From a virus, in the IMG/VR virus record IMGVR_UViG_3300027969_003455, positions 1 through 29,857 of that record: a stretch of 29,857 bases of DNA. One strand, 5' to 3'. This document shows positions 11,749 through 29,781 of the stretch, one piece after another. Both the position numbers and the translations under genes were made by a program. Under the pieces are notes generated by a model, which was not told the origin of the DNA, made no database searches, and saw nothing but the letters and a program-made list of their open reading frames with translations. Positions within the stretch are counted from its first letter, which is position 1; each line of letters starts with the position of its first letter.

Positions 11749-13287
11749 CTATACATCAAAATGTATTTCTTTAGTGTTTCCAGGGAGGTATTTTTCTTTA
11801 GCTGTATCGTGAGGATCAACAGGGAATTCGGCTGGGGATTGTCGTATAGCCTCAACAAATATCTGCTCTAGGTAAGAACCTCTCATCTGATCTTTTCCAG
11901 ACCTAGCACTTACAATTGTAACATCATTCAGCTTGTCGTTGTATTGACCACCCTTATAGGTCTTAACTGCCACACCATCAATGTCTTCATCGTTAGACAT
12001 GAATCCTTTAAAGTGCAGGTAGTTTAAATTAAACTTCTTACCCGTGAACACGGTGAACGGGTCTAATGTCGTTTGTGTTAGTGTTGAGTTATTAACAGTC
12101 CAAAATTTTTGGGCTACTTTAACAGCACTAGAATATCTTTTAACTTGAATCCGAATAAAGCTACCTACCAAGTCTTCCTCTAAGTGGAAACCGTACCTGC
12201 CTGCACTAATGTCAAAAGGCATTCTCTTCTCAATTATAAAAAACGCAAGGTATTCAAGATCCCTTTTGTCTGATAAATTGTTACCGTATATTGTTATATC
12301 TAGTGTTTCTTCGTTTAGTGGTACAAATTGTGATACCGCAGCACCACCAGCCTTAATCATCTTTAAAAGTGTACCACCTGTGAATGCGTCTAGTAATTCT
12401 TTTCCGCCAGCAGATATAGCAGATGCAATAGAGTCTGTAGTGTTTGTTATTCCTTGTTTTATCTCTATTCGTGTTATATTCTTCGTATTTGGCCAAGGTG
12501 CCAAATACGGAGCATCTATACCGTTATCTATAAGTGCACCAGCACCCTTACCAGCGTTATTCCGTGTGTCTATGTGAAAGTGTGTCTCACGGTCTAGAAA
12601 GCTATACTCCATCTTCATTGAGCCTGGGTGAAGCCTGCACTTTACTAAGTCTCTCTTAAACCCAACTGGCGTAGGTATATTTATTATCTCTCTAAAGTCG
12701 TCAGGAGATAAATTGTTGTTGAATAACACATCTGACCTGAAGTGCAAAACCCCAACAACCTTTATGGTTGTATAGAAGTCTTGGTCAATGATGTGCTCCA
12801 TAGCGTAGTTGTTGCTTAGTATCGGGTACCTAGGTGCACCGTACAAGTGTGCCTCGTTTAAGTCTGTCTGGATGACAAACTCAACATGAGCACTGTTCAT
12901 CCCATTTATTCTTTTTAAAGAGCAACCTAGTGGCCTAGGCCCGTTGTTGCAATCTACAGACTCTTCCGCATTTGTTGAAGGATCTCTCATAGGCGATTCT
13001 AAAAGTATCTGCCCACCTACAGAGTATATAAGCTTAAGCCTTGGAGTTGTAAGGAAGTGCTGAATAACATTATCGACATCTATAACATTAGTAGAGTTAG
13101 GTCCTAGAACCATCTGGTCTATGTCGTTGTCAGGCGAAACAACACCCTTGACTAACAAAGTGTGCCTTGTGTAGATGTAGTGCGTCTTTTCCTTATCTGC
13201 GTAGACAGGTTCTCTCTTGTAATCCTCAACACGAACCATACCTATTCGTATTGGCCCGTATTGCAGAAAATTTGCAGATATTCCCAT
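11749..13287 (-). CDS. Putative tail or baseplate structural protein
   Basis: A 512-aa product beginning 'MGISANFLQYGPIRIGMVRV' in a TAATG overlap with the preceding stop. The N-terminal half resembles a family I recall from phages with Mu-like heads, with the order 'YTRHTLLVKGVV', 'FLTTPRLKLIYSVGGQILLESP', 'LSNNYAMEHIIDQDFYTTIK' and 'PVGFKRDLVKCRLHPGSMKM'. That family has no assigned function that I know. Hydrophobic content in the middle ('LLDAFTGGTLLKMIKAGGAA') could be a short helical hairpin. The position just after a putative tail terminator argues for a tail or baseplate component. It is too unlike sheath proteins for me to call it one. Confidence 0.5.
   Translation of the reverse strand: MGISANFLQYGPIRIGMVRVEDYKREPVYADKEKTHYIYTRHTLLVKGVVSPDNDIDQMVLGPNSTNVIDVDNVIQHFLTTPRLKLIYSVGGQILLESPMRDPSTNAEESVDCNNGPRPLGCSLKRINGMNSAHVEFVIQTDLNEAHLYGAPRYPILSNNYAMEHIIDQDFYTTIKVVGVLHFRSDVLFNNNLSPDDFREIINIPTPVGFKRDLVKCRLHPGSMKMEYSFLDRETHFHIDTRNNAGKGAGALIDNGIDAPYLAPWPNTKNITRIEIKQGITNTTDSIASAISAGGKELLDAFTGGTLLKMIKAGGAAVSQFVPLNEETLDITIYGNNLSDKRDLEYLAFFIIEKRMPFDISAGRYGFHLEEDLVGSFIRIQVKRYSSAVKVAQKFWTVNNSTLTQTTLDPFTVFTGKKFNLNYLHFKGFMSNDEDIDGVAVKTYKGGQYNDKLNDVTIVSARSGKDQMRGSYLEQIFVEAIRQSPAEFPVDPHDTAKEKYLPGNTKEIHFDV
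12484..12509. repeat. Perfect 10-bp inverted repeat inside a coding sequence
   Basis: CGTATTTGGC (12484-12493) and GCCAAATACG (12500-12509) flank the loop CAAGGT in the middle of the 512-aa gene. On the plus-strand sense, three more outer pairs (12481-12483 with 12510-12512, one of them G.T) extend the stem. No T-run follows. Confidence 0.85.
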
Positions 13288-13817
13288 TATGTGACATCCA
13301 TTATGTATTTTACTTCAAAGTTTAAAAATGACCTAGATACTTGCCTTTGTGAGGACTTCTCTGCGTCTTCCTTGTTGTAGTGTGCTATCTCACCCCAACC
13401 AGCGTTAGGCTCTGCGAGTCGGACAGGCTCTGCACTTATCATATCACCGTTTGTGTTGTAAAGGAATTTTAAATGTAGGCAATTTAAAATTTGTTCTTCT
13501 CTCCTTAGGTGACCGTACACAGGGTCCATAAGTGACCTCTCGTCTGTGTCGCTCCTATCAACACCTAGCCTTGTCCTAATTACAATAGTTATAGTTCTGA
13601 GAAGAACGCTAGCGGTTCTTCCAGCCCCACTCACAAATTCCTCAACAGGGAATGGTAAGTTAGCTTTTACAAGTATATCAAAGTCTCCTCCGTATATTGG
13701 GATGTCATCCCTAGCGACAATCTTAACAATAGTGTCGTTAGTTATACCTAGGCTTGTTTTAATAGCTGTCTTTATAGATTTCAATATGTCAGCTATAGGT
13801 GATTTTATTTGAGCCAT
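13287..13817 (-). CDS. Putative tail terminator / tail completion protein
   Basis: A 176-aa product starting in TAATG overlap with the 620-aa gene. It begins with an amphipathic helix ('PIADILKSIKTAIKTSLGI'). It continues with 'IVARDDIPIYGGDFDILVKA' and 'RTITIVIRTRLGVDRSDTDE', and ends in a beta strand ('FLNFEVKYIMDVT'). Size, helix-then-beta layout and position recall tail terminator or Mu gp37-type minor tail proteins, which cap the tail tube. This is a structural analogy rather than a motif match. A simple alternative is another head-tail joining protein. Confidence 0.45.
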   Translation of the reverse strand: MAQIKSPIADILKSIKTAIKTSLGITNDTIVKIVARDDIPIYGGDFDILVKANLPFPVEEFVSGAGRTASVLLRTITIVIRTRLGVDRSDTDERSLMDPVYGHLRREEQILNCLHLKFLYNTNGDMISAEPVRLAEPNAGWGEIAHYNKEDAEKSSQRQVSRSFLNFEVKYIMDVT

Positions 13818-15679
13818 TAAAGACCTGCTTCGGTGTAATATAGAATATCTAATTGTGTCTTTTCAAAGCTTGGTGCACTTGCTGTAGGTATACCAGAAAC
13901 CATAGTAGGAAAAGCCATAGACTCTTTTTGAATTGCAGCTAAACCCAACCAAGGTATTATATCTTTTAGTATGCTTTCCTTTGGTGGTTGTGGGTTTGGG
14001 TTTTCTACTTTGGTAGGTGGTTCAACAACAGGAGCAGGCGGATCTTTCTTACCTAGTTTTTCTTTTGCTTTTACTGCTTCTGCTATGTCTTTTTCTTCTT
14101 GTATTTTTCTGGCGTTTTCTTTCGCTACGGCGGCAAGTCTTACTCTTTCTTCTTCTTCCCTTTTTGCTTTTTCCGCTGCTTTCTGTGCTTCTACTTTTGC
14201 AGCTTCTTCCGCTGCTATTCTTGCTTCTTCTTTTGCTTTTTTTTCTGCCTCTTCTTTTTCTTTTAAAAGCGCCTTCTCCTTTTCTGCTGCTTTTTCATTT
14301 TCTATTCTTGTTTTTTCTTTAAGAGCTTCTTGCCTTTCGTTTTCTATATCTGCTAATATTTTTGCTCGTTTTGCATCGTCTTCTTTAGGGTCAGTTAGCC
14401 CAACAGCGTCCATAAAGTTTGCAGGTATTCTCAACATTGACCCAACAGAACGCGCACCGCCTTGTATAACTCTTCCAAATCCTGTGTTAGTTTTTGTTGG
14501 CGGAGGTTTAGTTCCTGTTGCCCCAAATCCTGCAATCATTGGGGAATTTTGTGGATTTTCTGCTGACTCAGGCGTTGGGCTAGGGCTAGGGGATGGGCTT
14601 GGACTAGGTGTTGGTGGGGGCGTGGGTGGTGCATCTTTACCGGGTTTTCCAAGAAAATACGATAGCCCAGCTTCTATCTTTTTAATTAAACCATCAAAAG
14701 GTAGCTTTTTTGGTGCTGGTTTTCGTGATGGCCAGTTTATATTTGTACCACGAAGATCAAACCCAGGGTTTATTTCCCTATATGGTGTTTTAGAATTTAA
14801 ACCTATGCCCATACCAGAAGCTAAAAAGCCTGCTGTCTTGTAGTTTCCTTCCGAAGCTGCCCAAGCAGACCCTATTCCAAAACCTGCTTGAATAGGCTTC
14901 TGTAAGTACCTTAACGGCGATAAGCCCATTATTGGGTTTGTTAAAGGTGATATAAGATTACCCATGAACATACCTTCAGCAAAACCTTCAGGTGCCCTAG
15001 CTAAGTCTTGATCCTTTAGGCCAAGTGCGTCACCCCCAGTTTTTAATGCTTGGCTCCCTGCACCAAACATCGCAGTTGTGGCCGCCCAACCTTGTGCCCC
15101 TCTTGCAAGAAAACTTGGTAGCATTGCAGGTACACCAAAGAATCCAGCGGCTAAAGCAGCAGGTGCTCCTACTGCGAACAGTAAATCACGACTGCCTTGC
15201 GTGGTTTCTCTATAGTTTTCTTTATCTATTGAACTACTGCCCTCAGTAGCAAGTGATGATCTAAGGTGTAAATTTGTTAATACTTTAAAAGTTTTTTCAT
15301 CCATACCTTTAGAGTTTTTAGGATCATTTAAATACTTAATCCCCTCAGTAGTGTTTGTTCTTACACGATCACTATTTGGAGTAAGTTCATTTAACCTAGT
15401 TCCCATGCTTATTAATTTTTTTTGAATTTGTGTTCTGACTTCTTGTGCGTGCTCAGGGTCTTTGTGCATTGCACCAGCTTGAGTCATACCCTTAAGTATG
15501 TTCTCAGGGTGCATACTTTTGGAAAGTCTTTCTATTTCTTCATTGTTTGTTTCAACCCTGTCGGGTTCACCAAACCTATTATATTTAACTTTTGAAGGTA
15601 TCTCAAAATCACGCAAGCCTGGGAGTGTTCTCCTAGGCTTGTTGTGATCTATAGGGATCATATTTAGTTTTTCTGGCAT
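13817..15679 (-). CDS. Coiled-coil, proline-linker virion protein; possible short tape measure or internal protein
   Basis: A 620-aa product with distinct regions. A charged N-terminus (1-160) is followed by two hydrophobic Gly/Ala-rich stretches (about 165-207, 'LLFAVGAPAALAAGFFGVPA', and about 250-295). A Pro-Ser repeat linker lies near 350-366, with a long uninterrupted Ala/Lys/Glu coiled coil at about 430-545. A Pro-rich tail follows. Hydrophobic segments plus a long helix, and a position right after the putative tube proteins, fit a short tape-measure protein. However, there is no chaperone pair with a frameshift before it, and it is short for that role. The alternative is an internal or ejected virion protein. 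AAGGGG precedes the start at 15679. Confidence 0.5.
   Translation of the reverse strand: MPEKLNMIPIDHNKPRRTLPGLRDFEIPSKVKYNRFGEPDRVETNNEEIERLSKSMHPENILKGMTQAGAMHKDPEHAQEVRTQIQKKLISMGTRLNELTPNSDRVRTNTTEGIKYLNDPKNSKGMDEKTFKVLTNLHLRSSLATEGSSSIDKENYRETTQGSRDLLFAVGAPAALAAGFFGVPAMLPSFLARGAQGWAATTAMFGAGSQALKTGGDALGLKDQDLARAPEGFAEGMFMGNLISPLTNPIMGLSPLRYLQKPIQAGFGIGSAWAASEGNYKTAGFLASGMGIGLNSKTPYREINPGFDLRGTNINWPSRKPAPKKLPFDGLIKKIEAGLSYFLGKPGKDAPPTPPPTPSPSPSPSPSPTPESAENPQNSPMIAGFGATGTKPPPTKTNTGFGRVIQGGARSVGSMLRIPANFMDAVGLTDPKEDDAKRAKILADIENERQEALKEKTRIENEKAAEKEKALLKEKEEAEKKAKEEARIAAEEAAKVEAQKAAEKAKREEEERVRLAAVAKENARKIQEEKDIAEAVKAKEKLGKKDPPAPVVEPPTKVENPNPQPPKESILKDIIPWLGLAAIQKESMAFPTMVSGIPTASAPSFEKTQLDILYYTEAGL
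15614..15641. repeat. 12-bp inverted repeat (one G.U) near the start of the 620-aa gene
   Basis: CAAGCCTGGGAG (15614-15625) and CTCCTAGGCTTG (15630-15641) flank the loop TGTT, with one G.T wobble when read as plus-strand RNA. On the minus-strand mRNA that pair becomes an A-C mismatch. TCAC (15609-15612) and GTGA (15644-15647) can extend it. It lies 39-66 bases after the start codon at 15679. Confidence 0.7.
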
Positions 15680-15689
15680 AACCTACCCC

Positions 15690-16352
15690 TTAGTCGATGT
15701 TAGGGAGTGTAGCAAAATCAAATATTGCTGTGTCAGTGGTGTAAAGACGCAAGATGTAGTTTCCAGCGGTCATACCTGCATTTGCACCAGCTAACCCGTA
15801 AACCCCAGGTTTAACTACAGATGCGTGTGCTTCAACACCTAGCTGGAGTTTCTTAGCGTTTGTGCCTAAGCTGCCCTCCTCGTAACCAAATTGGGATGGA
15901 GTTACGGATGGGAAGAAGTAACCTCTGGGTATAGAACTATCTACTTGAGTTAGAGTAGAAAATTCAAACTTAACAGCTAGCCAATATCCCGAACTAAATA
16001 CACTCGAACTTGAGTACTCAGATAGAGAACCAATCTGGCCGCCATCTGTAATACCGGGTTGGTGAGTTTTACCGTGTCGTATATCCCTAGAGTTAACATT
16101 GCCTACAAAGTTTTGAACATTTGCATCATTAAACCTTGTCATTAAGAATTGCAGCTTGCTAGACATACCCTTAAAAATAAGATCTATAGGTGCTCCGCCT
16201 GCAATGTCGTTTTGAATATCCCCCCACTTGAATTCAGTTTCAAATTCAGGAGATTTTTCACAAGTTCCTAAGTACAGTGCTGCCGCAGGTAAGCTAGACT
16301 TGTGGCCTACATAAACATGTGCTGGACCCGTTACATGAATTTTAGCTGGCAT
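15690..16352 (-). CDS. Putative tail tube-type protein, paralogue A
   Basis: A 220-aa product with TGPAHVYVG at residues 8-16, YLGTCEKSP around 27-35, NDIAGGAPI around 48-56 and GTNAKKLQLGV around 163-173. The neighbouring 218-aa gene carries the same landmarks in the same order, so the two are paralogues from a tandem duplication. The pattern is a short N-terminal strand, 'LGT...SP', a conserved 'NDIxGG' and a beta-rich body of about 200 residues. This resembles phage tail tube proteins, and the location after the adaptor gene fits. The function is inferred; no specific family signature was confirmed. Confidence 0.5.
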   Translation of the reverse strand: MPAKIHVTGPAHVYVGHKSSLPAAALYLGTCEKSPEFETEFKWGDIQNDIAGGAPIDLIFKGMSSKLQFLMTRFNDANVQNFVGNVNSRDIRHGKTHQPGITDGGQIGSLSEYSSSSVFSSGYWLAVKFEFSTLTQVDSSIPRGYFFPSVTPSQFGYEEGSLGTNAKKLQLGVEAHASVVKPGVYGLAGANAGMTAGNYILRLYTTDTAIFDFATLPNID

Positions 16353-16354
16353 AG

Positions 16355-17011
16355 TTAGTTCACCTTTGCTTTAATGGTTGAGGATAAGGCCTTAATGTGT
16401 CTGTAGAGAATAAATTCACGGATGTTTGGACTTATTGGACCCACCGCTGTGCCGTTGCTATCCACATTAGTGTTAGTAAAGTACATTTTAGGGATGCACT
16501 TAAGTTCTAATGAAACACTCTTTGCACGGGTTCCCATCTCAGATATCTTTTCCTTTGTAGGTACCACAGAGGTAAAGTGCAAACCTTCAGGGTGTGAGGT
16601 TAAGTGGTCGTTTTCGGTGCTACCCGCTAAGAACCCTTGATGGAATGGGAAGTAAAACAACAAATCAAAATCGAACCCCATACCTTGTGAAAGTGCGCCC
16701 ATCTGTGCTCTTGTAATTTCTCCTCGATTAAGGCCATCACTAAACAACCCTGTTGCAATTTTTGCAAATACAGACTCATCGTATCTGTTTAGTGTTAATT
16801 TAATTGTGCCTACTTGCCCTTGATTAGCATATGATATCGGGGTTTCGCCACCGATATCATTCGTCACTTCTTCCTTAAGGCTTTGAATAGTGATACCTGG
16901 GCTTTTCTGACATGTTCCTAGGTATTCTAAGCTTTCAAGTTGTGCCGTTGTGTCCGCTAGACATTGCCCAATAAAAATGTGGGCTGGCCCAGTTGTAATA
17001 ATTTGTGCCAT
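16355..17011 (-). CDS. Putative tail tube-type protein, paralogue B
   Basis: A 218-aa product. The start at 17011 has AAGGAG upstream and a one-base gap after the adaptor stop. It shares TGPAHIFIG, YLGTCQKSP, NDIGGETPI and GTRAKSVSLEL with the next gene. The middle and C-terminal parts have diverged; here the C-terminus is more basic and helical ('REFILYRHIKALSSTIKAKV'). One copy may build the tube and the other act as an alternative or end subunit. Either could also be a head-tail connector component. The conserved NDIGGETPI segment is encoded exactly where a perfect 10-bp inverted repeat lies (16831-16860). Confidence 0.5.
   Translation of the reverse strand: MAQIITTGPAHIFIGQCLADTTAQLESLEYLGTCQKSPGITIQSLKEEVTNDIGGETPISYANQGQVGTIKLTLNRYDESVFAKIATGLFSDGLNRGEITRAQMGALSQGMGFDFDLLFYFPFHQGFLAGSTENDHLTSHPEGLHFTSVVPTKEKISEMGTRAKSVSLELKCIPKMYFTNTNVDSNGTAVGPISPNIREFILYRHIKALSSTIKAKVN
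16831..16860. repeat. Perfect 10-bp inverted repeat inside a putative tube gene
   Basis: ATGATATCGG (16831-16840) and CCGATATCAT (16851-16860) flank a 10-base loop whose ends (GG/CC) can add two pairs. The repeat encodes the conserved NDIGGETPIS segment of the 218-aa protein, so part of the symmetry may come from codon choice at conserved residues. Confidence 0.85.
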
Positions 17012-17012
17012 A

Positions 17013-17537
17013 TTAACTCCTTGGGTTGAAGAATTCGTTTGCTGAGGATTGTCTCATACCAAAGTAACGATCCATCTCACTAGAGAACAAGCTTACAGTT
17101 CTGCTTACTTGTGCTTGTTGTGGTGTTGAGGCTTGTTCGTTTTTTTCAATTTCAAATACACGCTCGCCTGTGCGTAACAACTCTAATATTTCTTCTGATT
17201 CCTTAGATCGTGATGTCATTGCATCTAAGTCAGCACCACCGTAACCACGCCTAGAGATTAGAAGTCCGTAAGCTATATCACAACAAATTCTTTTAAGGTG
17301 CCCCTTAGAATCTTGTGTCATAGCTACTAAATCTACAAGCTCGTACCTGCCACCTGCAAGTATTGCACTGTTGATCATACCTGAAGCATCAGACAGGGCG
17401 GTCTGTACGACTAGCCCTGCTGTGCTGTTTCCAGCTAGTTCCGCCTCCGTAGCTCGCTGGTCTGTGTCTAACACAAGATCAGCGATTCTACGAGAGTCGT
17501 AACGCATCAGAAGATCAGATACTGTTGCGTGTGCCAT
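17013..17537 (-). CDS. Head-tail adaptor, Mu gp36-like (DUF1320)
   Basis: A 174-aa product starting in TAATG overlap with the capsid stop. It matches the Mu gp36-like/DUF1320 pattern. An N-terminal 'TVSDLLMRYDSRRIADLVLD' is followed by an acidic turn, then 'ALSDASGMINSAILAGGRYE' and 'LKRICCDIAYGLLISRRGYG'. The usual family length is about 130-170 residues. Members sit just after the major capsid gene and are thought to join portal and tail. The position here is identical to that order, which supports the call. The C-terminal 40 residues are Ser/Gln-rich and likely flexible. Confidence 0.75.
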   Translation of the reverse strand: MAHATVSDLLMRYDSRRIADLVLDTDQRATEAELAGNSTAGLVVQTALSDASGMINSAILAGGRYELVDLVAMTQDSKGHLKRICCDIAYGLLISRRGYGGADLDAMTSRSKESEEILELLRTGERVFEIEKNEQASTPQQAQVSRTVSLFSSEMDRYFGMRQSSANEFFNPRS

Positions 17538-18703
17538 TACGCACTCGTAATGCCAGTTACGACATTTTTGAGTTTGAATGCAGTGATAGGAGCAACAATT
17601 TCAACGCCGTAATCTTCTACAATACGAGCATTGATACGGCGGTTATCTGGATCGTCTTTTTGTTCTACAGTCATTTCTTCGTATGCGAAGAGGTGCACAG
17701 TGGAGAACGAAGGCGAACCCTCAAAACCAACTAAGTCACCTGGGCGTGCAAGAATCCACATGTCGCCTGAAGGAACAACATAGTCGCTTACTCTGGTTGC
17801 ACCCTTCTTGTTGGATACTTTTACAACATCTTCGATGATGATGTCGTAACCGTACAACTTGTCAGGCAAACCATATTTACCATTCATGGATTCTGAATCT
17901 CCACGAATTTGAGCAAGTGCAACTGGCGACTCTTTAAGGTAGGTGTGGAGTTCCTTAGATCGTGCAATAGCATCAGCCGTTTCAGGGTTGATGATAACAC
18001 ACATCTCTTTAGGACCACAAGCACCCAAGGTTGCCTTGTTGATTCTTCGGGAGATTGCATTGAATGCTTTTTTCAATACAGGTCCATTAGATGTTCCTTG
18101 TGCAATGTCACCGGAGTCACCTGCATCAAGTCGATTACCACCTGTGATCACATTAGATGCTAAGGAGCAATCTACTGAGTCGATAGTGTCAGTACCACCC
18201 AATTGAATACCCCTGTCAGGACTACCGCTAGTAGTAACCGCAGTTGTAGTAGATGCGGACTCGTACAGCTTTTTCCAAACTTTGACAACACGGGCGGTCA
18301 TCGCTTGTTGTGCGTTAATCGCACTATAGCTAGCTACAATCTTCCAATCTGCTTGGTCAACTGCTTTATAGCCTAGCCTGAATGGGAATACATAGCGTTG
18401 AGTGTTAAAGTTTAACCACTCAAACTTTTCATTATTCCATTCGCCGTGTGGAGCATCATTACCATCGTGCCACACATGATCGTCAAGCTTATCGTAGGTA
18501 ACCCTAGCAGCTTGCTCTGCATTAAGTTTCAAGTAATAACCTGAAGACTTTTTGACAGGGGTGATTGTAATATATTTGTTCAAACCAAAATCTTTAGGAT
18601 TTCGGCTGAACGATACTACAAGTTGTCCCGTAGCGTCAAAGCTAGGGATGTATGTGTTTGTTCCACTTGGAAACTGAGCATTTTGCGATACAAAATCTGC
18701 CAT
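17537..18703 (-). CDS. Major capsid protein
   Basis: A 388-aa product placed between the decoration gene and the DUF1320 adaptor, the usual slot for the major head protein in Mu-like head modules. AAGGA lies upstream of the ATG at 18703. The N-terminus is polar and extended ('MADFVSQNAQFPSGTNTYIP'). The mid-region contains a helix with 'RVVKVWKKLYESA' and 'FNAISRRINKATLG', and 'EMCVIINPETADAIARSKEL', which fits the spine helix and P-domain part of HK97-fold capsids. It ends with 'VEDYGVEIVAPITAFKLKNV'. Length and layout fit the fold, but I cannot confirm it by motif. The product is expected to be the most abundant virion protein. Confidence 0.8.
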   Translation of the reverse strand: MADFVSQNAQFPSGTNTYIPSFDATGQLVVSFSRNPKDFGLNKYITITPVKKSSGYYLKLNAEQAARVTYDKLDDHVWHDGNDAPHGEWNNEKFEWLNFNTQRYVFPFRLGYKAVDQADWKIVASYSAINAQQAMTARVVKVWKKLYESASTTTAVTTSGSPDRGIQLGGTDTIDSVDCSLASNVITGGNRLDAGDSGDIAQGTSNGPVLKKAFNAISRRINKATLGACGPKEMCVIINPETADAIARSKELHTYLKESPVALAQIRGDSESMNGKYGLPDKLYGYDIIIEDVVKVSNKKGATRVSDYVVPSGDMWILARPGDLVGFEGSPSFSTVHLFAYEEMTVEQKDDPDNRRINARIVEDYGVEIVAPITAFKLKNVVTGITSA

Positions 18704-18730
18704 GATATTTATCCTTAATTAGTTATATTG

Positions 18731-19183
18731 TTATACTGGTATGACCACAACATGTGGGTTTACCTGAATCAACACCTTTTCTCCAGCAACAACCGAGTTA
18801 AGTGCGGTTCCAGCTACTTGGTAAGTACCGGGGGTAGTTCCAATAGTAATTGCACCACCGTTAAGAGTGGCGTTCCCTGCTGTTCCACCTGTGTAGGCTT
18901 TAACTTTAGAACCAGCGGTAATGTTGCCACTTGAGCGAACCATGCACACATCGCCTAGGCCAAACACCTTTAGTGTTCTCCCTGCCTTAGCTGCAAGCTT
19001 GCTCTCAGTGCCACCTAAAAGGGTAGCAAGGTTTGGTGGATCAAATGTACCTTCTTGTGCTACACCGATAATTGGTTCGGTGCTGGCACTAACTTGGGAT
19101 ACTGTAAATTCCCCAGTCACTGTTACGAAACTTGCTGGAAAGATATCTCCACCAGCTACAAAAGACGGATTGTACAAAGGCAT
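18731..19183 (-). CDS. Head decoration / capsid cement-like protein
   Basis: A 150-aa beta-rich, Gly/Val/Thr-rich product with AGGAG before the ATG at 19183. It resembles small capsid-stabilising proteins of the DUF2190/cement kind. It has 'GGDIFPASFVTV' near the N-terminus, 'EPIIGVAQEGTF' in the middle, 'LKVFGLGDVCMVRSSGNITAGS' later, and a closing strand 'VLIQVNPHVVVIPV'. It lies between the protease/scaffold and the major capsid gene, the normal site of decoration genes. It probably binds the outside of the expanded head. A head fibre base is an alternative. Confidence 0.65.
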   Translation of the reverse strand: MPLYNPSFVAGGDIFPASFVTVTGEFTVSQVSASTEPIIGVAQEGTFDPPNLATLLGGTESKLAAKAGRTLKVFGLGDVCMVRSSGNITAGSKVKAYTGGTAGNATLNGGAITIGTTPGTYQVAGTALNSVVAGEKVLIQVNPHVVVIPV

Positions 19184-19198
19184 GAATTATTCTCCTAG

Positions 19199-20347
19199 TT
19201 AAAGTACTTTTTCAGCATTAATTTTACCAAGAGCTTCTTGGTAGGTAATGCCGTTTTGGGTTGCAAAATTAATAGCTTCGTTCACTTCGTCCTTAGTGCG
19301 GCCACGCACCCCACCAGAACGAGATTCTTGGTAGTAAGAGGCTCGTGCACCAATAGGTGCTTTTTGGTACCTTTTACGGATGATCTGAAGATGTGCCCTA
19401 TAGGTCTTCTCAGGTAGAGATTGGACCAAGGTTAGCTCTTCACCACGGTCTAACATGAAACCTTCTGCTTCCAATTCAATAAGATCTTTCTCACGCTCTG
19501 CACGCTGGAATTTAATCTTGATGTTTTGAATCTCCTTGTGGAGAAGTTGGTTTTCTTGCTCTACCCTGGATAGTTTAATACGGTCATATCGCTTACCCCT
19601 AGACTGTTGGATAGGTTGCTCTTCTTCTGTGGATTCTTCTGGCATAGGTTCTTCGCCACTGCCATCATCATCCATAGGAGGTCCACCCATGCTAGGGTCT
19701 TCCATGCCTTGTTCTGGCATAGGGGCTTCTTCACCGGGCATTCCCTCAGGCGGCATACCACCTTCCTCAGGTGGTGCCTCACCACCTTGTTGTGAGAGTT
19801 GTGTAAGGAATTGCCAAACATCCGTTTGTTGGAGTCCAGCTAACACACCGTCAATAATACCTTGTTGATCATTCATTCCTATAGTCCTTTGATATTTTTT
19901 AACCCCGCCTTTAGAAAGTCGGAGTAGGCCTAAGTCTCGTTCAGGAGTAGTTGCACCGAGCAAACTAATCGGGTCAATCTTATAGTCACTTAACCAAAGT
20001 TCTATTGATCTCCTTGGGAAACCACGAACCTTGTCAGCAGCGTGTTTGAAGAACTTGAAGGTTGCTGTGATACACTTCCTACCTGTCTTGAAGAACGGCT
20101 CAACCTTTAGGTTAGTAGCGTATCCAACAATCTCAGGTTGCTCACCTTCAGGTGCATCATCCTTGGTATGCCCTATGACAAGTGGTATCTCGTCACCAGT
20201 ACTACCCATGCGCTTATTGTTTACTCTAACTATCTCAGATAGCTTTTTCTGGTCGAGCCGAATCACCACATTCCCTTTGCCATCCTTAAGCTCATGCTCG
20301 TCCAGAATAGGAACATGGTGTTTAACAATCATGTCGTTATCGTCCAT
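19199..20347 (-). CDS. Prohead protease / scaffold, Mu gpI-like
   Basis: A 382-aa product starting in TAATG overlap with the 1416-aa gene, with GAGGAG upstream. Residues 1-140 match the Mu-like gpI protease pattern: 'IPLVIGHTKDD' with His60, 'IVGYATNLKVEPFF', 'FPRRSIELW' with Ser114, then 'DPISLLGATTPERDLG'. His60 and Ser114 are the likely catalytic pair of a herpes-assemblin-type serine protease (inferred from spacing). Residues about 190-250 are a Pro/Glu/Met/Gly acidic stretch, and about 260-305 a coiled coil ('RVEQENQLLHKEIQNIK'). The C-terminal half is therefore the scaffold, removed by self-cleavage during maturation in this family. Confidence 0.8.
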   Translation of the reverse strand: MDDNDMIVKHHVPILDEHELKDGKGNVVIRLDQKKLSEIVRVNNKRMGSTGDEIPLVIGHTKDDAPEGEQPEIVGYATNLKVEPFFKTGRKCITATFKFFKHAADKVRGFPRRSIELWLSDYKIDPISLLGATTPERDLGLLRLSKGGVKKYQRTIGMNDQQGIIDGVLAGLQQTDVWQFLTQLSQQGGEAPPEEGGMPPEGMPGEEAPMPEQGMEDPSMGGPPMDDDGSGEEPMPEESTEEEQPIQQSRGKRYDRIKLSRVEQENQLLHKEIQNIKIKFQRAEREKDLIELEAEGFMLDRGEELTLVQSLPEKTYRAHLQIIRKRYQKAPIGARASYYQESRSGGVRGRTKDEVNEAINFATQNGITYQEALGKINAEKVL

Positions 20348-23300
20348 TAAGCTCCTCGCAGTTTTTTAATTGCGTCCGTTACAACGCTATCTTTGTGAAA
20401 TCTTTTTACACCGTCATTCTGTGGTGCAAATTGTCCGCCGTTGTAGTTCCTACCACGGAATGTAATACCGTGTGCACCTGCTCGATATTGATCTTTAGCG
20501 TGTGCTGATTTTTTAGCAAACTTTTGTGGTTGTGGGGTTGTTCTCATTTTATCCCATACCTTTCCAGCTTTGTTATATTCCTTCTCTGCGGCTTTTGCAA
20601 AAGCCCGCAGTGAAGGTACACTGTGTTCTAACTCTGAACTAATAGCCTCTAAGGAAAAGTAATCTCCATCCTTAGCGTCTTGAATCAAGTGTTGTGCGTG
20701 TTCAGGTATCACACTTTGCACTTGAAGACTATCAATTAGCTTTTTTAAACCACTGCTTTGAAGTACTGTCCTTGCGTGCTCTTTGCAGTACATCTCTCTT
20801 CTGTTAGATTCACTCGTCATGTCGTCATACAGACTAGGGTCATTTTGCAGTGAGCTAACTGCACCTTCTATGTCTGACCAGCTAGCATCGGGAATCAACT
20901 GTTGGTATTTTGATAGATGCTCTGGCTTTATATTTTGAAAATCCTGACTTAGTAAATCCCCAACAGCTGGTAGTTCTTTATTAGGTGTGTTGTGTTGTCT
21001 CAGGAAACCTTCTAACACCCTACGACTACGATCAAATTTTATTTTGGCCTTGGTTTTGCGGGATAGTTGCTGGGCTTGCCCTGTGCTGGTGCTTGTGCCA
21101 TTGGTGGGTGCCCCACTAGTATTGTTGGTAGCCCCGGCCTTGTTATTATTCTGCTCATACTCACCTATGATGTTTGTGTAAGCTTGTCTGGATTTCGGTA
21201 GAGCACCAGCGCTGTTCCAATCACCATTATGCCCTACAATTTCACCTTGTCCAATGTTTTCTACTACATTTAAGTTATTATTTGTAGCATATTGGTCTAT
21301 GTTGTTTCTCATTGTTCTGTTTGGATCGTACACTAATACTTTAGTGTTTGTCTTTCCAGGTAGTAATGTCTTGTAGTTTATACCTGCTGCTACTAGTGAA
21401 TCTCGCACTTCACCCATATCTGTTGAAGGGTGCGTAATGTGATATAAACTATCTGGACCTTGTGAGTTTGGATGGAACACAAGTACAGATTTCTTCTGTC
21501 CTGAGATACCGTGCCAAGCTGCTAGATATTTTAATCTAGCTGGGTCGGTGCCTTGTGGTGCCGTGTGCACGATTGACTCTTCAGAACCATTAGGCCAATC
21601 ACCAACCGCATTCTGTGCGGTGGTTTCTACACCACCCTTGGCATTGATCTGGTTACCAAGTGCACCTTGTGCTAGGTTCTTACCGCCTGGGGATTTAGCC
21701 ACGGCGTTGGAGAACGGCTGGTTGGTTCTAGTCGCAACAGGTGCTCCTGTCATACCACCGGCTGCCTGTGTGAACTGTGCGAATTTTATTGGTCGTTCGG
21801 TTCTTTTAGTTCCATCCCCATCATCTCCGGTGGAAATTGATCTTCTCTTGAGCTTGAGGCGTGGTAAAATTCTCTGTAGTGTTTCTTGAGAGATTTTATA
21901 AGCTCCACCTCTAAATCCCTCTGCGGCGGCCCTTTGGCTTGCTCTTTTTTCCAAAACCTCTTTGGTTTCATGCATATCTCCTTCTTGAATATGTTTATAG
22001 TTTTTAGCCCAATCCTCTAACTCTTTTGCGTGTGTTGTGTCGTGAGGCATCTCATCTTGATCATTTTGACCTAGTAAAGATGAACTTCTATGAAGAGCAC
22101 TCTTTACAGCTTTATCTGCAAATGATATTACACCATGTGACAAGTAAGAGCTAGGGTTAGTTCCACCAAATGACCTAACTGTTCCTTGATGATTAGACCA
22201 CAAGTGCCCTTGCAACATATCTACTCTAGGTATCTCTATTGGGGCACCACCATGCTTATTATCCCTTACTTCTATATATCCGAGTTCTTTTGTGGCTTGT
22301 ATTAGGGAATGTGCAAATGCTGCTCTCTGTCTATCGTTTTCAGGTGCACCACCAAAAACAGTATTCATCCAGCGTCCAAAATATTCTGTCATAACCCTAT
22401 CTGCAACAAATGGTGCGTTCATTGCACCATCCCCGAAGTGATGTAGGTATTCTGCCATCATAGAAAGAACATACGGACCAAACTTTTTACCTAGACCAAA
22501 CACACCGGGTAAAGCTTTTGCTTCCTCAAATGTAATATTTTGATTAGGGTCAAGTTGCTTTGCTTCGTAGAATTCTTTATCTGCTATTTCTTTTCTTTGA
22601 CCTTCTGCATTTATTTCATGAACTTTATTTAGGTAGTGATCTATCATAGATCTGTCATCAGTCATCCCACTAGATTCGTTTTGTACAAAAGATAAGAAAT
22701 CTTCTGTTGACCCAGGTCTAAGCATCCATTTAGAATTTTTTGGAACTACCTCTCCACTGGCATTCCTAACATAAATAGGATATTTTTGTGCTTTAACTGC
22801 TGGGGATGCTTCAATATTTTTTGTAGGATCTGCCTTAACTGCTTTAATACCCGGTCTAGCTGGGGCACCTGCAAGAGAATTTCCTTCTGCATCTAGAAAA
22901 TGTTTTTTGTCTTCACCTACATCTGTAAGCTCCATCTGAGCGCCTATATTACCTTTATCCAAACTTGCGTTTTTTAGTATGGCCGTCATACTTGGCTTAG
23001 GTATAGGCTTGCCCGGATTCTCTGCTTTGTATCTACTTACATAATTATAATAACCGTCTTGAAAGATCTTTAATGCTGTTTCTGAATTTGCTATAGGTGT
23101 TAGGTTGCTTGATGTAGGCCCAAGCAATAACTTAAATATCATAGATGCGTTCATCTGCTCTTCTGTTTGATCTAATCTTTTCTTACCATCACCGTCAGGC
23201 TCCGAAATAGTTCCTAACATACCACGCATTAATTTAAATTCAGGGTGCGTGTTAACTAAGTTAACTAAATTTATATCGTGCTTTCTTCCATCTTTAGAAT

Positions 23301-24597
23301 ACCAATTTAAAAAGTCTAAGTTTGTTTGTATGTTAGATCCATAACCAACAGCACCAGACATTGCTAATTTTGACCTAGCTGCTTCTAGTGTTAGTATGTG
23401 TGATAAGTTATCGTTATAAGTTTTTCTTTCGGCTTCCGCTTGGTCGTATTTAATTTTCTTTTCATTGTAAGCTTGTTGCGCTTTAGGTGTACCGTTTGGA
23501 TTTTTACTAGATGTTTTAATAGCTTGAACTTCATTTGATAGCCTAGGTTTTTTACCTTTTACTAATTGTGTTCTTAATGCTTGATATGCCTCTGTCATCT
23601 CAGGTGCAAAAGCAGCGGATAAAGAAAAAAGTAAACTCTTTACTTCTTGTGTTCTTGGATCTTCTTTGTCATCTTCTTCTTCTTCTTCACCTTCTTCTTT
23701 TTCTTTAGCTTTAGGTGCTTTATTTCCAGAAGTGGATTTTCCATTTCTGCATACAGGGTTTCCAATCCCTGTGTTAGTCCCAGGATAAAATTGCTCTTGT
23801 CTACCAATCCCAGTTTTTTCAAGAAGCATACCCGCTTGTATTCTTTTGCTATCAACAAATTGGTTTGCACCTGTCCATATACTATTTAGGCTATTTTCTA
23901 TCTCTAGTTTTTTTGCTGGGTCTTTTTCTTTAGAATGCATGTCTTGCAAAGTTTGCATAATGACAGCTATTCGTTCAGTAGGGTCGTCAGATATATGCTC
24001 TTCTTTAAGATTTGCAAAGGCTGGTATATTTGGATTAGTTGCTTGTGCTCTTTTAAAAGCGCCCCATAGTTCTTTTTTGTGCTCTTGAAAAACAGAATCG
24101 TCCGCTGTTACTGTTCTATGATCTTCCCATATTTTATGAATTATACCTGTGTGGTCACCTGCTATTGTTAGAGGTTTGTGTGATGGTGTGTAAGGTACAT
24201 TTATATCAAGAGCGTCTTTCTCTTCGGGTGTTCTTCCTTTTACCGCAGCTTTACTATTGGTAGTTCCCAATATAGAGGGTTCCACTCGAATAGGTTTTCC
24301 TTGTTCATCATTTGCATCCACAGGTGGTGCAGCTTTTGAATTAGGTGTGTACTTATTTTTTTGACGCTTATTCTCAGCTTTTTTTGCTTGGTCTTCTAAC
24401 TGCTTTGGTGTTGGTGGTTTTTTTACTTTAGCTGTGGTATTTTTAGGCGTACTTTCCGTGGAAACTTTTTTTGGTTTTTTTTCCTTAACCGGAGTATCCG
24501 TAGGTGTACCAACAGTAGCCTTAGGCTTACCAAACTTAATTCGTGCGACATCACGGGCTAATCGAGCAAACCTAATAAATGGGTTGTAATTATCCAT
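20347..24597 (-). CDS. Giant 1416-aa head-region protein of unknown family
   Basis: Not recognised. It starts at 24597, one base after the preceding stop. Residues 1-130 are Lys/Pro/Thr-rich and disordered, apart from an N-terminal basic helix ('FIRFARLARDVARIKFG'). An acidic Glu/Asp run lies near 298-315. A helical region follows. The segment near 700-800 looks globular ('FGPYVLSMMAEYLHHFGDGA', 'RVMTEYFGRWMNTVFGGAPE'). A compact alpha/beta unit lies near 1030-1110 ('KKSVLVFHPNSQGPDSLYHI'). The C-terminus has 'ITFRGRNYNGGQFAPQND' near 1380, a 'GGQFAP' signature I recall from the ends of phage head-morphogenesis proteins. It sits where Mu-like phages encode gpF, so an internal or ejected head protein is plausible. 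Confidence 0.5.
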   Translation of the reverse strand: MDNYNPFIRFARLARDVARIKFGKPKATVGTPTDTPVKEKKPKKVSTESTPKNTTAKVKKPPTPKQLEDQAKKAENKRQKNKYTPNSKAAPPVDANDEQGKPIRVEPSILGTTNSKAAVKGRTPEEKDALDINVPYTPSHKPLTIAGDHTGIIHKIWEDHRTVTADDSVFQEHKKELWGAFKRAQATNPNIPAFANLKEEHISDDPTERIAVIMQTLQDMHSKEKDPAKKLEIENSLNSIWTGANQFVDSKRIQAGMLLEKTGIGRQEQFYPGTNTGIGNPVCRNGKSTSGNKAPKAKEKEEGEEEEEDDKEDPRTQEVKSLLFSLSAAFAPEMTEAYQALRTQLVKGKKPRLSNEVQAIKTSSKNPNGTPKAQQAYNEKKIKYDQAEAERKTYNDNLSHILTLEAARSKLAMSGAVGYGSNIQTNLDFLNWYSKDGRKHDINLVNLVNTHPEFKLMRGMLGTISEPDGDGKKRLDQTEEQMNASMIFKLLLGPTSSNLTPIANSETALKIFQDGYYNYVSRYKAENPGKPIPKPSMTAILKNASLDKGNIGAQMELTDVGEDKKHFLDAEGNSLAGAPARPGIKAVKADPTKNIEASPAVKAQKYPIYVRNASGEVVPKNSKWMLRPGSTEDFLSFVQNESSGMTDDRSMIDHYLNKVHEINAEGQRKEIADKEFYEAKQLDPNQNITFEEAKALPGVFGLGKKFGPYVLSMMAEYLHHFGDGAMNAPFVADRVMTEYFGRWMNTVFGGAPENDRQRAAFAHSLIQATKELGYIEVRDNKHGGAPIEIPRVDMLQGHLWSNHQGTVRSFGGTNPSSYLSHGVISFADKAVKSALHRSSSLLGQNDQDEMPHDTTHAKELEDWAKNYKHIQEGDMHETKEVLEKRASQRAAAEGFRGGAYKISQETLQRILPRLKLKRRSISTGDDGDGTKRTERPIKFAQFTQAAGGMTGAPVATRTNQPFSNAVAKSPGGKNLAQGALGNQINAKGGVETTAQNAVGDWPNGSEESIVHTAPQGTDPARLKYLAAWHGISGQKKSVLVFHPNSQGPDSLYHITHPSTDMGEVRDSLVAAGINYKTLLPGKTNTKVLVYDPNRTMRNNIDQYATNNNLNVVENIGQGEIVGHNGDWNSAGALPKSRQAYTNIIGEYEQNNNKAGATNNTSGAPTNGTSTSTGQAQQLSRKTKAKIKFDRSRRVLEGFLRQHNTPNKELPAVGDLLSQDFQNIKPEHLSKYQQLIPDASWSDIEGAVSSLQNDPSLYDDMTSESNRREMYCKEHARTVLQSSGLKKLIDSLQVQSVIPEHAQHLIQDAKDGDYFSLEAISSELEHSVPSLRAFAKAAEKEYNKAGKVWDKMRTTPQPQKFAKKSAHAKDQYRAGAHGITFRGRNYNGGQFAPQNDGVKRFHKDSVVTDAIKKLRGA
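20580..20616. repeat. Long quasi-palindrome inside the 1416-aa gene
   Basis: CCTTC (20580-20584) pairs with GAAGG (20612-20616), CTGCGG (20586-20591) with CCGCAG (20605-20610), and CTTT (20592-20595) with AAAG (20600-20603), around the tetraloop TGCA. Only one T.T mismatch and one bulged C interrupt the 15 pairs. Confidence 0.8.
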
Positions 24598-24598
24598 A

Positions 24599-26101
24599 TT
24601 ACCTGCCTCTTAGTCTTTGACCCAACCTTGGGAATAATTTTGGCTGTTGGGCTACTGGTGCAGGCGTATTAGCCGCCTTAATAGTAGTTGTAATAGGGCT
24701 AGGGGCTGGCTTTGTAAATATAGGATCTTTATTAGGTCTAATTAAATTATGTGCTCTTGGGAATCGTGCAGTCCTACCATTCCCTTGGTTTGCATAATTA
24801 CCACCAACAGGTGCCTCTTCTGTCTCTGGCTCTGGTTTAGCTACCTGCGGTGTCATTAAACTTTTAGGTGGACCTTGTTGCGTTTTATTTACTTTAATGT
24901 TACCTGGATTAGGTCCACCCTTAGTGTTCCCTATAGGTTTAGGAGATGGCGCTGCTTTTGGTGGTGCTGGCTTAGGCTCTGGTTTAGGTGCCATTGCCCC
25001 TTCATTTTTATCCTTATCTACATCTAGCTCTTCTCGCTTAGTGGGTGGTCGATTATCAACAGGTGGTTTGTATTGTGAATATTTAGGTGGCGTATATGGG
25101 CGTTCTGGTTCTTCCATTGGTTTTTCCTGAATTGGCTGTTGTGCAGGTATTGGGGCAGGTGTAGGTGACGCAATTGGTTGTGTAGATTCAGGCTTTATGA
25201 TAGGCCTGTCGTTAACATCTTTGTTAGGGTTTACTTGACTAGGTACTTGGCCTTGTGGTGGTCTGGCTTGCCTAGGGAAGTTGCCTCTCTCATGGTTAAA
25301 TCTCCAAACCTCTAGCTGTTGTTGTGGGCTAAGTTTGGTGTAGTCGTCAGGAGGCCTTGTGGAACCCTCTGCCGCCATTCTAGCATTATTTCTATCTTGA
25401 AACTCTTTTAATTGTGCGTGCTGTTGCGGGGTTAAGACATCAGATGGCTGTGAGGTGTTTGGAACACCTACTTGTCCACCAGCTTGATTTGCAGCTTGTA
25501 CTTCCTGACGAGTTGGAATCCTTTTACCTGTGTTTTGACCTTCTGCAACCATAGCCTCGTAGTTGAAACTTCCGTCTGGGCGTATCATCCCTTTACCCCT
25601 AGCATCTTTTAGCACAGGGTCAGGTTTATAATTTCCCATTGGGTTAGGAGGAAGAAACCCAGGGTGTTTTTTACGCATCTCCTCGTAGTGTTTTTGTTGT
25701 GCCCGAACTGCTTCTGCGTGTATGTCATCTGGATTTGTAGAACGGTTTTGTTCCCACGCTTGATTAGGGTTTTGTGGTGGTGGTGCAGGTGGTACATTAC
25801 CTGCGTTTCCGTGTTGGTTCCCAAAGCTATTGCCGTGCTTAGTCACATTAGCCGCAGCTTGAGGGCCTGATATGTGATAGTGTGAACCACCTTGTGCAAG
25901 GTTTGCTGCTGTAATTGGTGCCTGACCTTTGTTAGCTTCATTATAAGCAGTTGCTCTATCTTGTCTGTCTTTATTAATATTTATAGGTTTGGCAGGAATA
26001 GTGTTAACCCTAGATGGCCCGCCATTACCACTTTTAATAGCTTGCATAGCTGCTTCATGTTCTGCGTGTTGTACCGCTTCACTGCGTGGATCTATTGCCA
26101 T
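24599..26101 (-). CDS. Proline/glutamine-rich disordered virion-associated protein
   Basis: A 500-aa product with AAGGA before the ATG at 26101. It is dominated by Pro, Gln, Asn, Ala and Lys, with almost no hydrophobic core, so it is predicted to be disordered. Patches include 'NVPPAPPPQNPNQAWEQNRS' near 100, 'EMRKKHPGFLPPNPMGNYKP' near 140 and a Lys/Pro/Glu repeat region near 360-440. It ends in a basic tail ('PKLFPRLGQRLRGR'). The phrase 'PDGSF' recurs at the end of the neighbouring 158-aa protein. No enzyme motif was seen. Its setting suggests a DNA-binding or packaged internal protein, or a scaffold partner, which is inference. Confidence 0.5.
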   Translation of the reverse strand: MAIDPRSEAVQHAEHEAAMQAIKSGNGGPSRVNTIPAKPININKDRQDRATAYNEANKGQAPITAANLAQGGSHYHISGPQAAANVTKHGNSFGNQHGNAGNVPPAPPPQNPNQAWEQNRSTNPDDIHAEAVRAQQKHYEEMRKKHPGFLPPNPMGNYKPDPVLKDARGKGMIRPDGSFNYEAMVAEGQNTGKRIPTRQEVQAANQAGGQVGVPNTSQPSDVLTPQQHAQLKEFQDRNNARMAAEGSTRPPDDYTKLSPQQQLEVWRFNHERGNFPRQARPPQGQVPSQVNPNKDVNDRPIIKPESTQPIASPTPAPIPAQQPIQEKPMEEPERPYTPPKYSQYKPPVDNRPPTKREELDVDKDKNEGAMAPKPEPKPAPPKAAPSPKPIGNTKGGPNPGNIKVNKTQQGPPKSLMTPQVAKPEPETEEAPVGGNYANQGNGRTARFPRAHNLIRPNKDPIFTKPAPSPITTTIKAANTPAPVAQQPKLFPRLGQRLRGR

Positions 26102-28311: not shown

Positions 28312-29781
28312 ATGCGGTATTTATCGGTATGTTCAGGTATAGAAGCAGCGTCTGTTGCTTGGAAAAACCTAGGGTGGAAACCCGCAGGTTTTTCTGAAAT
28401 AGAACCTTTTCCTTGTGAAGTTTTAAAACACCATTACCCTAAAGTTAAGAATTATGGAGACATCAATGAGCACAAAAAATGGAAACTCCCAACAATTGAC
28501 CTTTTGGTCGGAGGAACACCTTGCCAATCTTTCAGCATTGCAGGCTTGCGAGGTGGATTGGACGATCCCAGGGGAAACATCATGCTTACCTACCTTAGAG
28601 TCGTTGAAAGTAGACGGCCTAAGTGGGTTGTGTGGGAAAATGTCCCCGGTGTATTGTCATCTAACGGAGGAAAAGATTTTTCTACCTTCATCACATCGTT
28701 GGGGAACATGGGGTATGGGTGGGCCTACCGAGTGCTTGACGCTCAATGGTTCGGACTCGCCCAAAGACGCAAGCGTGTGTTTGTTGTCGGATGTCTTGGA
28801 GACACAACAAGTGCTTCCAAGGTATTATTTGAGTGCGAAAGCGTGCGCAGGGATTCTACGCCGAGCAGAGAAAAGAGGAAAGAAATTACCGGAACTATTA
28901 CACGAGGCTTTGGCGACCGTGGTGTTGACCACTCACAAATAGTTGATGGTGCTTACAAGATAGAATACTCATCGCCTATCACAGGTGCACTAGCTGCTGC
29001 TGATGGGCCTAAGGGTGTTAGTGATCAGTACGCACATGAAGGTAAGCTTGTGAGTGTGATTTGTAGAAGTTCAGGACAGGGTGATGCGGAGGTGTGCTAC
29101 GACCTGTGCCCAACCCTAAACTGTCTTCATGAAGCACCGCACATTACCACCTACGACATGAAGCAACACCACAACCCACAACCTAGCGACACAGCACAAC
29201 TCACAACAAAGAATTGTGCGAATGTTCGTGGTGACACACCGCTAGCGTCTATCTCGTTTGAACCCGGAATCGCAGCTAGGGAAGGTAGCCCTAGCAGGTT
29301 TATACCGGAGATGACAGGTACACTAAGGGGTGATATGGGAGACAACCAAGTTGCTGCTGCCTACAACATCACATTCTGTGATTCTAATGGAACTAGGAAA
29401 GACAGACCCAATGGTGGTTTGTATGTGAATGAGACTGATGCGAGCAACGCCTTGACTTCGTCAGGCGTTGGCTCGTCCGCACATATTGTTCATGGAACAC
29501 AAGATCCTTGTGTTTCTGATATTGCCTATGCACAAGGTAGGAACAATGGCGGCGAAAATGTACTTATTAAAAGTACGGCTGTTAGAAGACTTACACCCCG
29601 TGAATGTGAAAGGTTACAAGGATTTCCTGACGACTACACATCTATTGCGTGGAAGAATAAACCTGCCGAATTGTGTCCAGATGGCCCTAGATATAAAGCT
29701 CTAGGGAATTCTATGGCTGTGCCTGTTATGCGTTGGATTGGTGAACGAATTAACAAAGTAAACAAGGAGCTAAAGTCATGA
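28312..29781 (+). CDS. dcm: Phage C5-cytosine DNA methyltransferase
   Basis: A 489-aa enzyme that transfers a methyl group from S-adenosylmethionine to carbon 5 of cytosine in DNA. GAGGG lies five bases before the ATG. The motifs are complete: I 'SVCSGIEAAS' (5-14), IV 'GGTPCQSFS' with catalytic Cys71, VI 'ENV' (109-111), VIII 'QRRKR' (151-155), IX 'RLTPRECERLQGFP' (426-439) and X 'YKALGNSMAVPV' (461-472). The target-recognition region (about 190-420) is long and contains repeated short motifs around 'TGxL' or 'LTxx', as in many phage-borne enzymes. It probably protects phage DNA from host restriction. It is translationally coupled by ATGA to the next gene. Another open frame overlaps codons 52-210. 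Confidence 0.93.
   Translation: MRYLSVCSGIEAASVAWKNLGWKPAGFSEIEPFPCEVLKHHYPKVKNYGDINEHKKWKLPTIDLLVGGTPCQSFSIAGLRGGLDDPRGNIMLTYLRVVESRRPKWVVWENVPGVLSSNGGKDFSTFITSLGNMGYGWAYRVLDAQWFGLAQRRKRVFVVGCLGDTTSASKVLFECESVRRDSTPSREKRKEITGTITRGFGDRGVDHSQIVDGAYKIEYSSPITGALAAADGPKGVSDQYAHEGKLVSVICRSSGQGDAEVCYDLCPTLNCLHEAPHITTYDMKQHHNPQPSDTAQLTTKNCANVRGDTPLASISFEPGIAAREGSPSRFIPEMTGTLRGDMGDNQVAAAYNITFCDSNGTRKDRPNGGLYVNETDASNALTSSGVGSSAHIVHGTQDPCVSDIAYAQGRNNGGENVLIKSTAVRRLTPRECERLQGFPDDYTSIAWKNKPAELCPDGPRYKALGNSMAVPVMRWIGERINKVNKELKS
28456..28460 (+). promoter_or_regulatory. Internal ribosome binding site for the overlapping gene
   Basis: GGAGA lies five bases before the ATG at 28466, in the +1 frame of the methyltransferase. 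It favours that ATG over the one at 28454. The same bases encode the conserved Gly-Asp of the enzyme's 'YGDI' motif, so part of the match may be imposed by that protein. Confidence 0.5.
28466..28942 (+). CDS. Candidate overlapping gene in the +1 frame of the methyltransferase
   Basis: A 158-aa product starting 'MSTKNGNSQQLTFWSEEHLA', preceded by GGAGA. It lies wholly inside the methyltransferase gene, from motif III through the start of the recognition region. The frame could extend four codons upstream to 28454. The product looks like a real protein. 'GKMSPVYCH' sits in the middle, followed by 'HRWGTWGMGGPTECLTLN' and then 'RYYLSAKACAGILRRAEKRG' (119-138), which forms a basic helix. I recall very similar hypothetical proteins with 'RYYLS.KACAGILRRAEKRGK.LP' in many prophages, also next to or within cytosine methyltransferase genes. 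Function unknown. The alternative is that the frame stays open only because the enzyme sequence is conserved. Confidence 0.55.
   Translation: MSTKNGNSQQLTFWSEEHLANLSALQACEVDWTIPGETSCLPTLESLKVDGLSGLCGKMSPVYCHLTEEKIFLPSSHRWGTWGMGGPTECLTLNGSDSPKDASVCLLSDVLETQQVLPRYYLSAKACAGILRRAEKRGKKLPELLHEALATVVLTTHK
29441..29475. repeat. Quasi-palindrome inside the methyltransferase recognition region
   Basis: CGAGC/GCTCG, AACGCCT/AGGCGTT and GAC/GTC pair in register around a TTC loop, with one bulged T (29453) and one bulged G (29470). That gives 15 pairs within 35 bases. The region codes for about residues 377-388 of the enzyme. Confidence 0.8.

Follow-up and report, generated by a model that had tools for sequence, protein, structure and literature searches.

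The cytosine-5 methyltransferase gene (dcm) of an uncultivated virus contig almost certainly contains, as judged from its evolutionary signatures, a genuine second gene on the same strand, hereafter alt, nested in its +1 frame. As the best reading of its role, to which we give a probability of about one half, alt would encode a small protein that is tethered to the clamp and acts as a partner of Dcm. The window, that is, the whole 29,857-nt stretch of DNA analysed, encodes dcm at positions 28312..29781 of the + strand (489 aa; PF00145, E=3e-60; TIGR00675, E=3e-58) and carries portal and tail-fibre genes on the opposite strand, where none of six large ORFs examined in the structural cluster (382-1416 aa; 11749..26101, - strand) had a PHROG match at 1e-5. 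All dcm motifs I-X lie within one frame, and the catalytic motifs are intact, with PCQ at codons 70-72, ENV at 109-111, QRRKR at 151-155 and motif IX/X at 425-476, invariant residues being judged in a 46-sequence alignment. As stated in a preliminary description of this DNA, a 158-aa +1 ORF runs from ATG28466 to 28942 (+ strand), is preceded at five bases by a Shine-Dalgarno-like GGAGA (28456..28460, +) and includes the distinctive segment RYYLSAKACAGILRRAEKRG; another in-frame ATG upstream (28454..28456, +) has no Shine-Dalgarno match. The overlap had been assigned to the catalytic half of the enzyme, which holds for motifs III/IV to just beyond VIII (dcm codons 52-211) but not for the whole half. 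In total, the open +1 stretch spans 171 codons; in controls in which the synonymous codons of dcm were shuffled while keeping the dcm protein, the longest run averaged 72 (p=0.0008). Combining this open-frame p over 116 non-redundant homologues yielded 5e-53 for +1 and 0.95 for +2, values that are not true probabilities because the homologues are related.

Since homologues must not be picked by the frame under test, dcm relatives were fetched with its last 74 and its first 48 codons as queries, both outside the overlap, and the homologue sets comprised the best matches among those listed in the scans. Among the matches listed, alt was lost in none of the 146 genes with a full-length dcm match, and a strict rule scored both frames as intact in one piece in 136 of them. 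The other ten included four genes scored as broken in dcm with alt intact (two by a nearby second dcm-like gene, two by a dcm frameshift), three short forms starting later, two whose C-terminus extends beyond the profile limit, and one frameshifted in both frames; looser cases in the unbiased homologue set were four short or truncated forms and one frameshift in both frames. Codon alignment of the 116 non-redundant genes revealed the sharp drop in synonymous change that had been proposed as a check, with fourfold-site identity in dcm of 0.26-0.35 almost everywhere outside the overlap versus 0.38-0.90 at codons 61-210. Synonymous constraint in dcm is thus confined to the overlap. The +1 stops also to be looked for in close dcm homologues were absent over dcm codons 106-195 (0 of about 9,200 codon cells in 116 homologues). 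At codons 181-195, amino acid identity was 0.30 for dcm versus 0.70 for alt, and base identity by dcm codon position (0.40/0.66/0.76) reversed the pattern found outside the overlap, a switch in the phase of codon periodicity that is expected if alt is the coding frame there. In 96 independent pairs, dN/dS of alt given a dcm change, obtained by simple counting and not with a published program, was 0.67, 0.44 and 0.39 for three segments within the overlap, compared with 0.92 before and 0.99 after it. Whole-overlap values were 0.50 [0.46-0.53] for alt and 0.24 for dcm, indicative of purifying selection on both frames, and the +2 control yielded 1.61 inside and 1.18 outside the overlap. Similarly, a repeat with 11 Firmicutes phage and plasmid genes gave fourfold identities of 0.51-0.88 inside versus about 0.3 outside, and zero +1 stops across dcm codons 61-180. 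Together, synonymous sites, absence of stops, phase switch and +1 dN/dS bear out the earlier proposal that two proteins are conserved in one DNA stretch.

Starts of alt were likewise assessed in the homologues. Those preceded by a Shine-Dalgarno match were enriched (50/116 vs 17.1 expected), the opposite of the loss in relatives that would have spoken against the gene, although the exact positions of the ATG and GGAGA shift. The alternative proteins fall into two length classes, the long forms starting near dcm codons 48-60 and the short ones, found in P1, Vibrio and Enterobacter phages, near codon 99. The enrichment of Shine-Dalgarno-preceded starts is an indirect hint that ribosomes may initiate alt internally on the dcm mRNA.

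By tblastn, the alt protein was found, among the matches listed, in 165 records of phages that infect many different hosts, in >590 IMG/VR stretches, in prophage-like loci of Proteobacteria, Acidobacteria, Treponema, Planctomycetes and others, and in P1-like (539 records) and Gram-positive (65 records) plasmids; isolates carrying it include P1, MM1, SpSL1, and Vibrio and Omegavirus phages. As to whether these matches always overlap dcm, 27/27 strong ones in 21 whole genomes do, and no stand-alone copy was found in these 21 genomes plus 80 genome loci, every strong match being the +1 frame of a dcm. Twenty classical dcm genes gave zero matches to the alt profile. This strict tie may reflect shared DNA only. 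In the tree, 37 alt-bearing dcm rows form one group and a Streptococcus phage pair adjoins the classical dcm genes, a topology that needs two changes and is compatible with one gain plus one loss or with two gains.

What is new here, as read from sequence patterns, is a putative clamp-binding pentapeptide right behind the alt start, wherever this start lies, in many members. The bacterial clamp-binding consensus is QL(S/D)LF, with Gln at position 1 and hydrophobic or aromatic residues at positions 4 and 5 (PMC9690074, PMC4549789). Members starting at different dcm places display it close behind their start codon, as in MQLTMF, MQLSMF, MQMSMF, MQQLSLF, MTFDQLDLF, MTSQQYQMTLF, MEGLQLSLF and MPSIQLGLF, and SpSL1 alt has QMSLF. 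Tag peptides of alt also include MTLQQYQMNLFEESD and MTFDQLDLFPSAE, the window's own being NSQQLTFWSEEH. The corresponding pentapeptide in the window, QLTFW (28493..28507, +), retains Q1 and the hydrophobic/aromatic positions 4 and 5 and is non-canonical, canonical versions being found in relatives. Across 243 non-redundant alt frames, the strict pattern Q[LMI]x[LM]F occurred 23 times within the initial 70 codons, versus 0.28 expected upon permutation of dcm codons (maximum, 3 of 200), but neither elsewhere in +1 nor in the dcm and +2 frames (117,032 codons); chance level is illustrated by one strict match in the +1 frame of the 20 classical dcm genes (8,833 codons). Although starts vary in their dcm place, the nearest upstream Met was 1-6 residues from the motif in 21/23 strict matches, which involve at least six places along dcm, the 10/23 that read QLTMF possibly representing one clade. 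Q..LF was present at the same place in 11/11 Firmicutes alt proteins (0.51 expected), over varying dcm residues. At the commonest tag place, that of the window included, the encodable residues are limited by dcm IDLLVGG and the pattern is partly forced; despite this limit, Q at position 1 (140/179, 35 expected) and F at position 4 (157/179, 47 expected) are under strong selection. No motif was found in 111/243 non-redundant members within the narrow interval searched, P1 and CobraSix-type short forms among them. At the sequence level, the alt family thus carries the sliding-clamp pentapeptide, QL(S/D)LF or a close variant, and we consider it likely that this N-terminal motif binds the clamp.

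The most conserved part of alt is a predicted C-terminal helical mini-domain (residues 107-157; 28784..28936, +) that contains RYYLSAKACAGILRRAEKRG and includes the highly identical stretch at dcm codons 181-195. AlphaFold2 modelled residues 1-100 with low confidence and residues 120-157 as three helices with pLDDT about 95, predicting a disordered N-terminal part and a confident helical mini-domain. These C-terminal helices are basic. Confidence in the predicted dcm model is high for most of residues 1-178 and again from ~425, while residues 179-412 are devoid of confident structure; the coding sequence of the alt mini-domain thus coincides with a dcm region that can tolerate change. The terminal ACxGILRRAxxRGK part is missing from the Firmicutes alt proteins. 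Profile search, Foldseek and VIA-align retrieved no solved-structure relative of alt, nor was there a Pfam match.

These features would be reconciled by a model in which alt arose by overprinting within cytosine-5 methyltransferase genes of a mobile-element lineage, in their +1 frame, and encodes a small adaptor whose basic helical mini-domain is joined through a flexible, Ser-rich linker to an N-terminal tag for the sliding clamp (DnaN). Riding on the clamp, alt would contact Dcm or DNA and bring the enzyme to newly replicated DNA, phage or plasmid DNA thereby being methylated while it is made. The model draws on the tie of alt to dcm, on the location of dcm among replication/recombination gene clusters, and on the precedent of DNMT1, which is brought to newly replicated DNA by a PCNA-binding motif (PMC9690074). 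Whereas DNMT1 has this motif built in, alt would provide it in trans, as a distinct nested protein that is encoded by the DNA stretch of the enzyme and whose function we infer. Dcm of SpSL1 methylates RCGRC (PMC6755750) and its alt bears QMSLF, so that the presence of both genes is consistent with enzyme activity. A role of alt in replication-coupled methylation is nonetheless put forward tentatively, at somewhat under even odds. Comparably provisional is the broader notion that, in mobile elements of many phyla, two frames of one DNA stretch may specify a methyltransferase and a clamp adaptor guiding this enzyme to the fork. Of the two roles suggested in the preliminary description, accessory factor fits alt better than anti-restriction protein, the latter being still a guess.

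The strict tie to dcm would also be accounted for if alt acted independently of the clamp as a Dcm-binding subunit required for activity or specificity, a role comparable to that of the small M.EcoHK31I polypeptide. The EcoHK31I genes overlap, and in both M.EcoHK31I and M.AquI one C5 methyltransferase locus gives rise to two polypeptides, as with dcm/alt. The two-polypeptide nature of the former (PMC3404938) and the annotation of MM1 orf14 as a beta subunit are in line with this explanation. However, the small polypeptide supplies motif IX in M.EcoHK31I and contains IX-X in M.AquI, whereas alt has no such motif and dcm here holds all of them in one frame, with IX and X at residues 425-476. The clamp-like tag would also be left unexplained, and we regard such a subunit as unlikely.

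The same N-terminal motif evidence could instead mark alt as an inhibitor of the host sliding clamp serving host takeover or replication control, much as SocB blocks replication through a clamp motif (PMC9690074). Yet some carriers of alt, namely plasmids and prophages, are maintained in their host cells, and inhibition gives no reason for its strict tie to dcm; we hold this function to be distinctly improbable. Very doubtful is an anti-restriction function by which alt would keep McrBC and other modification-dependent nucleases from attacking phage DNA that bears the 5mC mark. Both the link of alt to the enzyme making the mark and its basic C-terminal helices would suit this activity, and the alt-bearing SpSL1 methylates RCGRC and is subject to abortive infection that was McrBC-independent (PMC6755750). 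Nevertheless, the abortive infection in that study is due to SpnIII and so says little on McrBC inhibition, and the clamp-like tag again lacks an explanation. Finally, passive conservation of +1 as a by-product of dcm conservation or of an RNA/DNA element, to which we assign a negligible probability even though a conserved overlapping protein can itself yield +1 tblastn matches, is rejected by four kinds of test (synonymous sites, stops, phase and dN/dS), by the 20 classical dcm genes as negative control, and by the higher conservation of the +1 protein than of dcm at codons 181-195.

To our knowledge, overlapping genes of such depth have rarely been shown outside small viruses. Lambda Rz1 is also a phage gene nested in +1, within Rz, but it has a lysis function and encodes an unrelated protein. 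Although alt sits in one of the commonest phage enzymes, those of P1 and MM1 included, it is almost never annotated, dcm alone being nearly always called, and past knock-out or cloning of such dcm genes would also have removed or expressed a second protein. Should alt indeed bind the clamp, this would account for how methylation of phage and plasmid DNA keeps pace with replication, and DNMT1-PCNA coupling would have a bacterial counterpart. In the open-licence full-text literature we found neither a description nor an evolutionary test of this overlap.

The statement in the preliminary description that many prophages have close relatives annotated as proteins in their own right proved mostly wrong, MM1 orf14 and Thibault gp104 being the only annotated copies found. 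In Streptococcus phage MM1 1998, orf14 is annotated as "C5 methyltransferase beta subunit" and is the +1 frame of orf13. The PHROG_16143 profile ("DNA methyltransferase", 139 aa) matches window alt at 8e-15 and 81/115 relatives, and this PHROG and orf14 belong to the same protein family as window alt. Both are labelled methyltransferase, yet alt is a different frame devoid of any methyltransferase motif, so the label of PHROG_16143, matched by most members, is probably a mis-annotation; PHROG_1008, likewise described as "DNA methyltransferase", also matches the +1-frame protein. In Mycobacterium phage Thibault (L333, 820-2621), the HNH endonuclease gene gp103 lies within dcm and also splits the +1 frame, gp104 being the 81-aa annotated piece of this frame left by the interruption. 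The PLSDB table lists zero genes over the matched dcm region of Bifidobacterium breve pMP7017 (L408, 1326-2995), where the gene may therefore be unannotated. In the Omegavirus phages L338 and L327, dcm ends after about 280 codons and its C-terminal motifs are encoded by another ORF further downstream; the +1 frame is intact in these phages and carries a perfect QLDLF tag.
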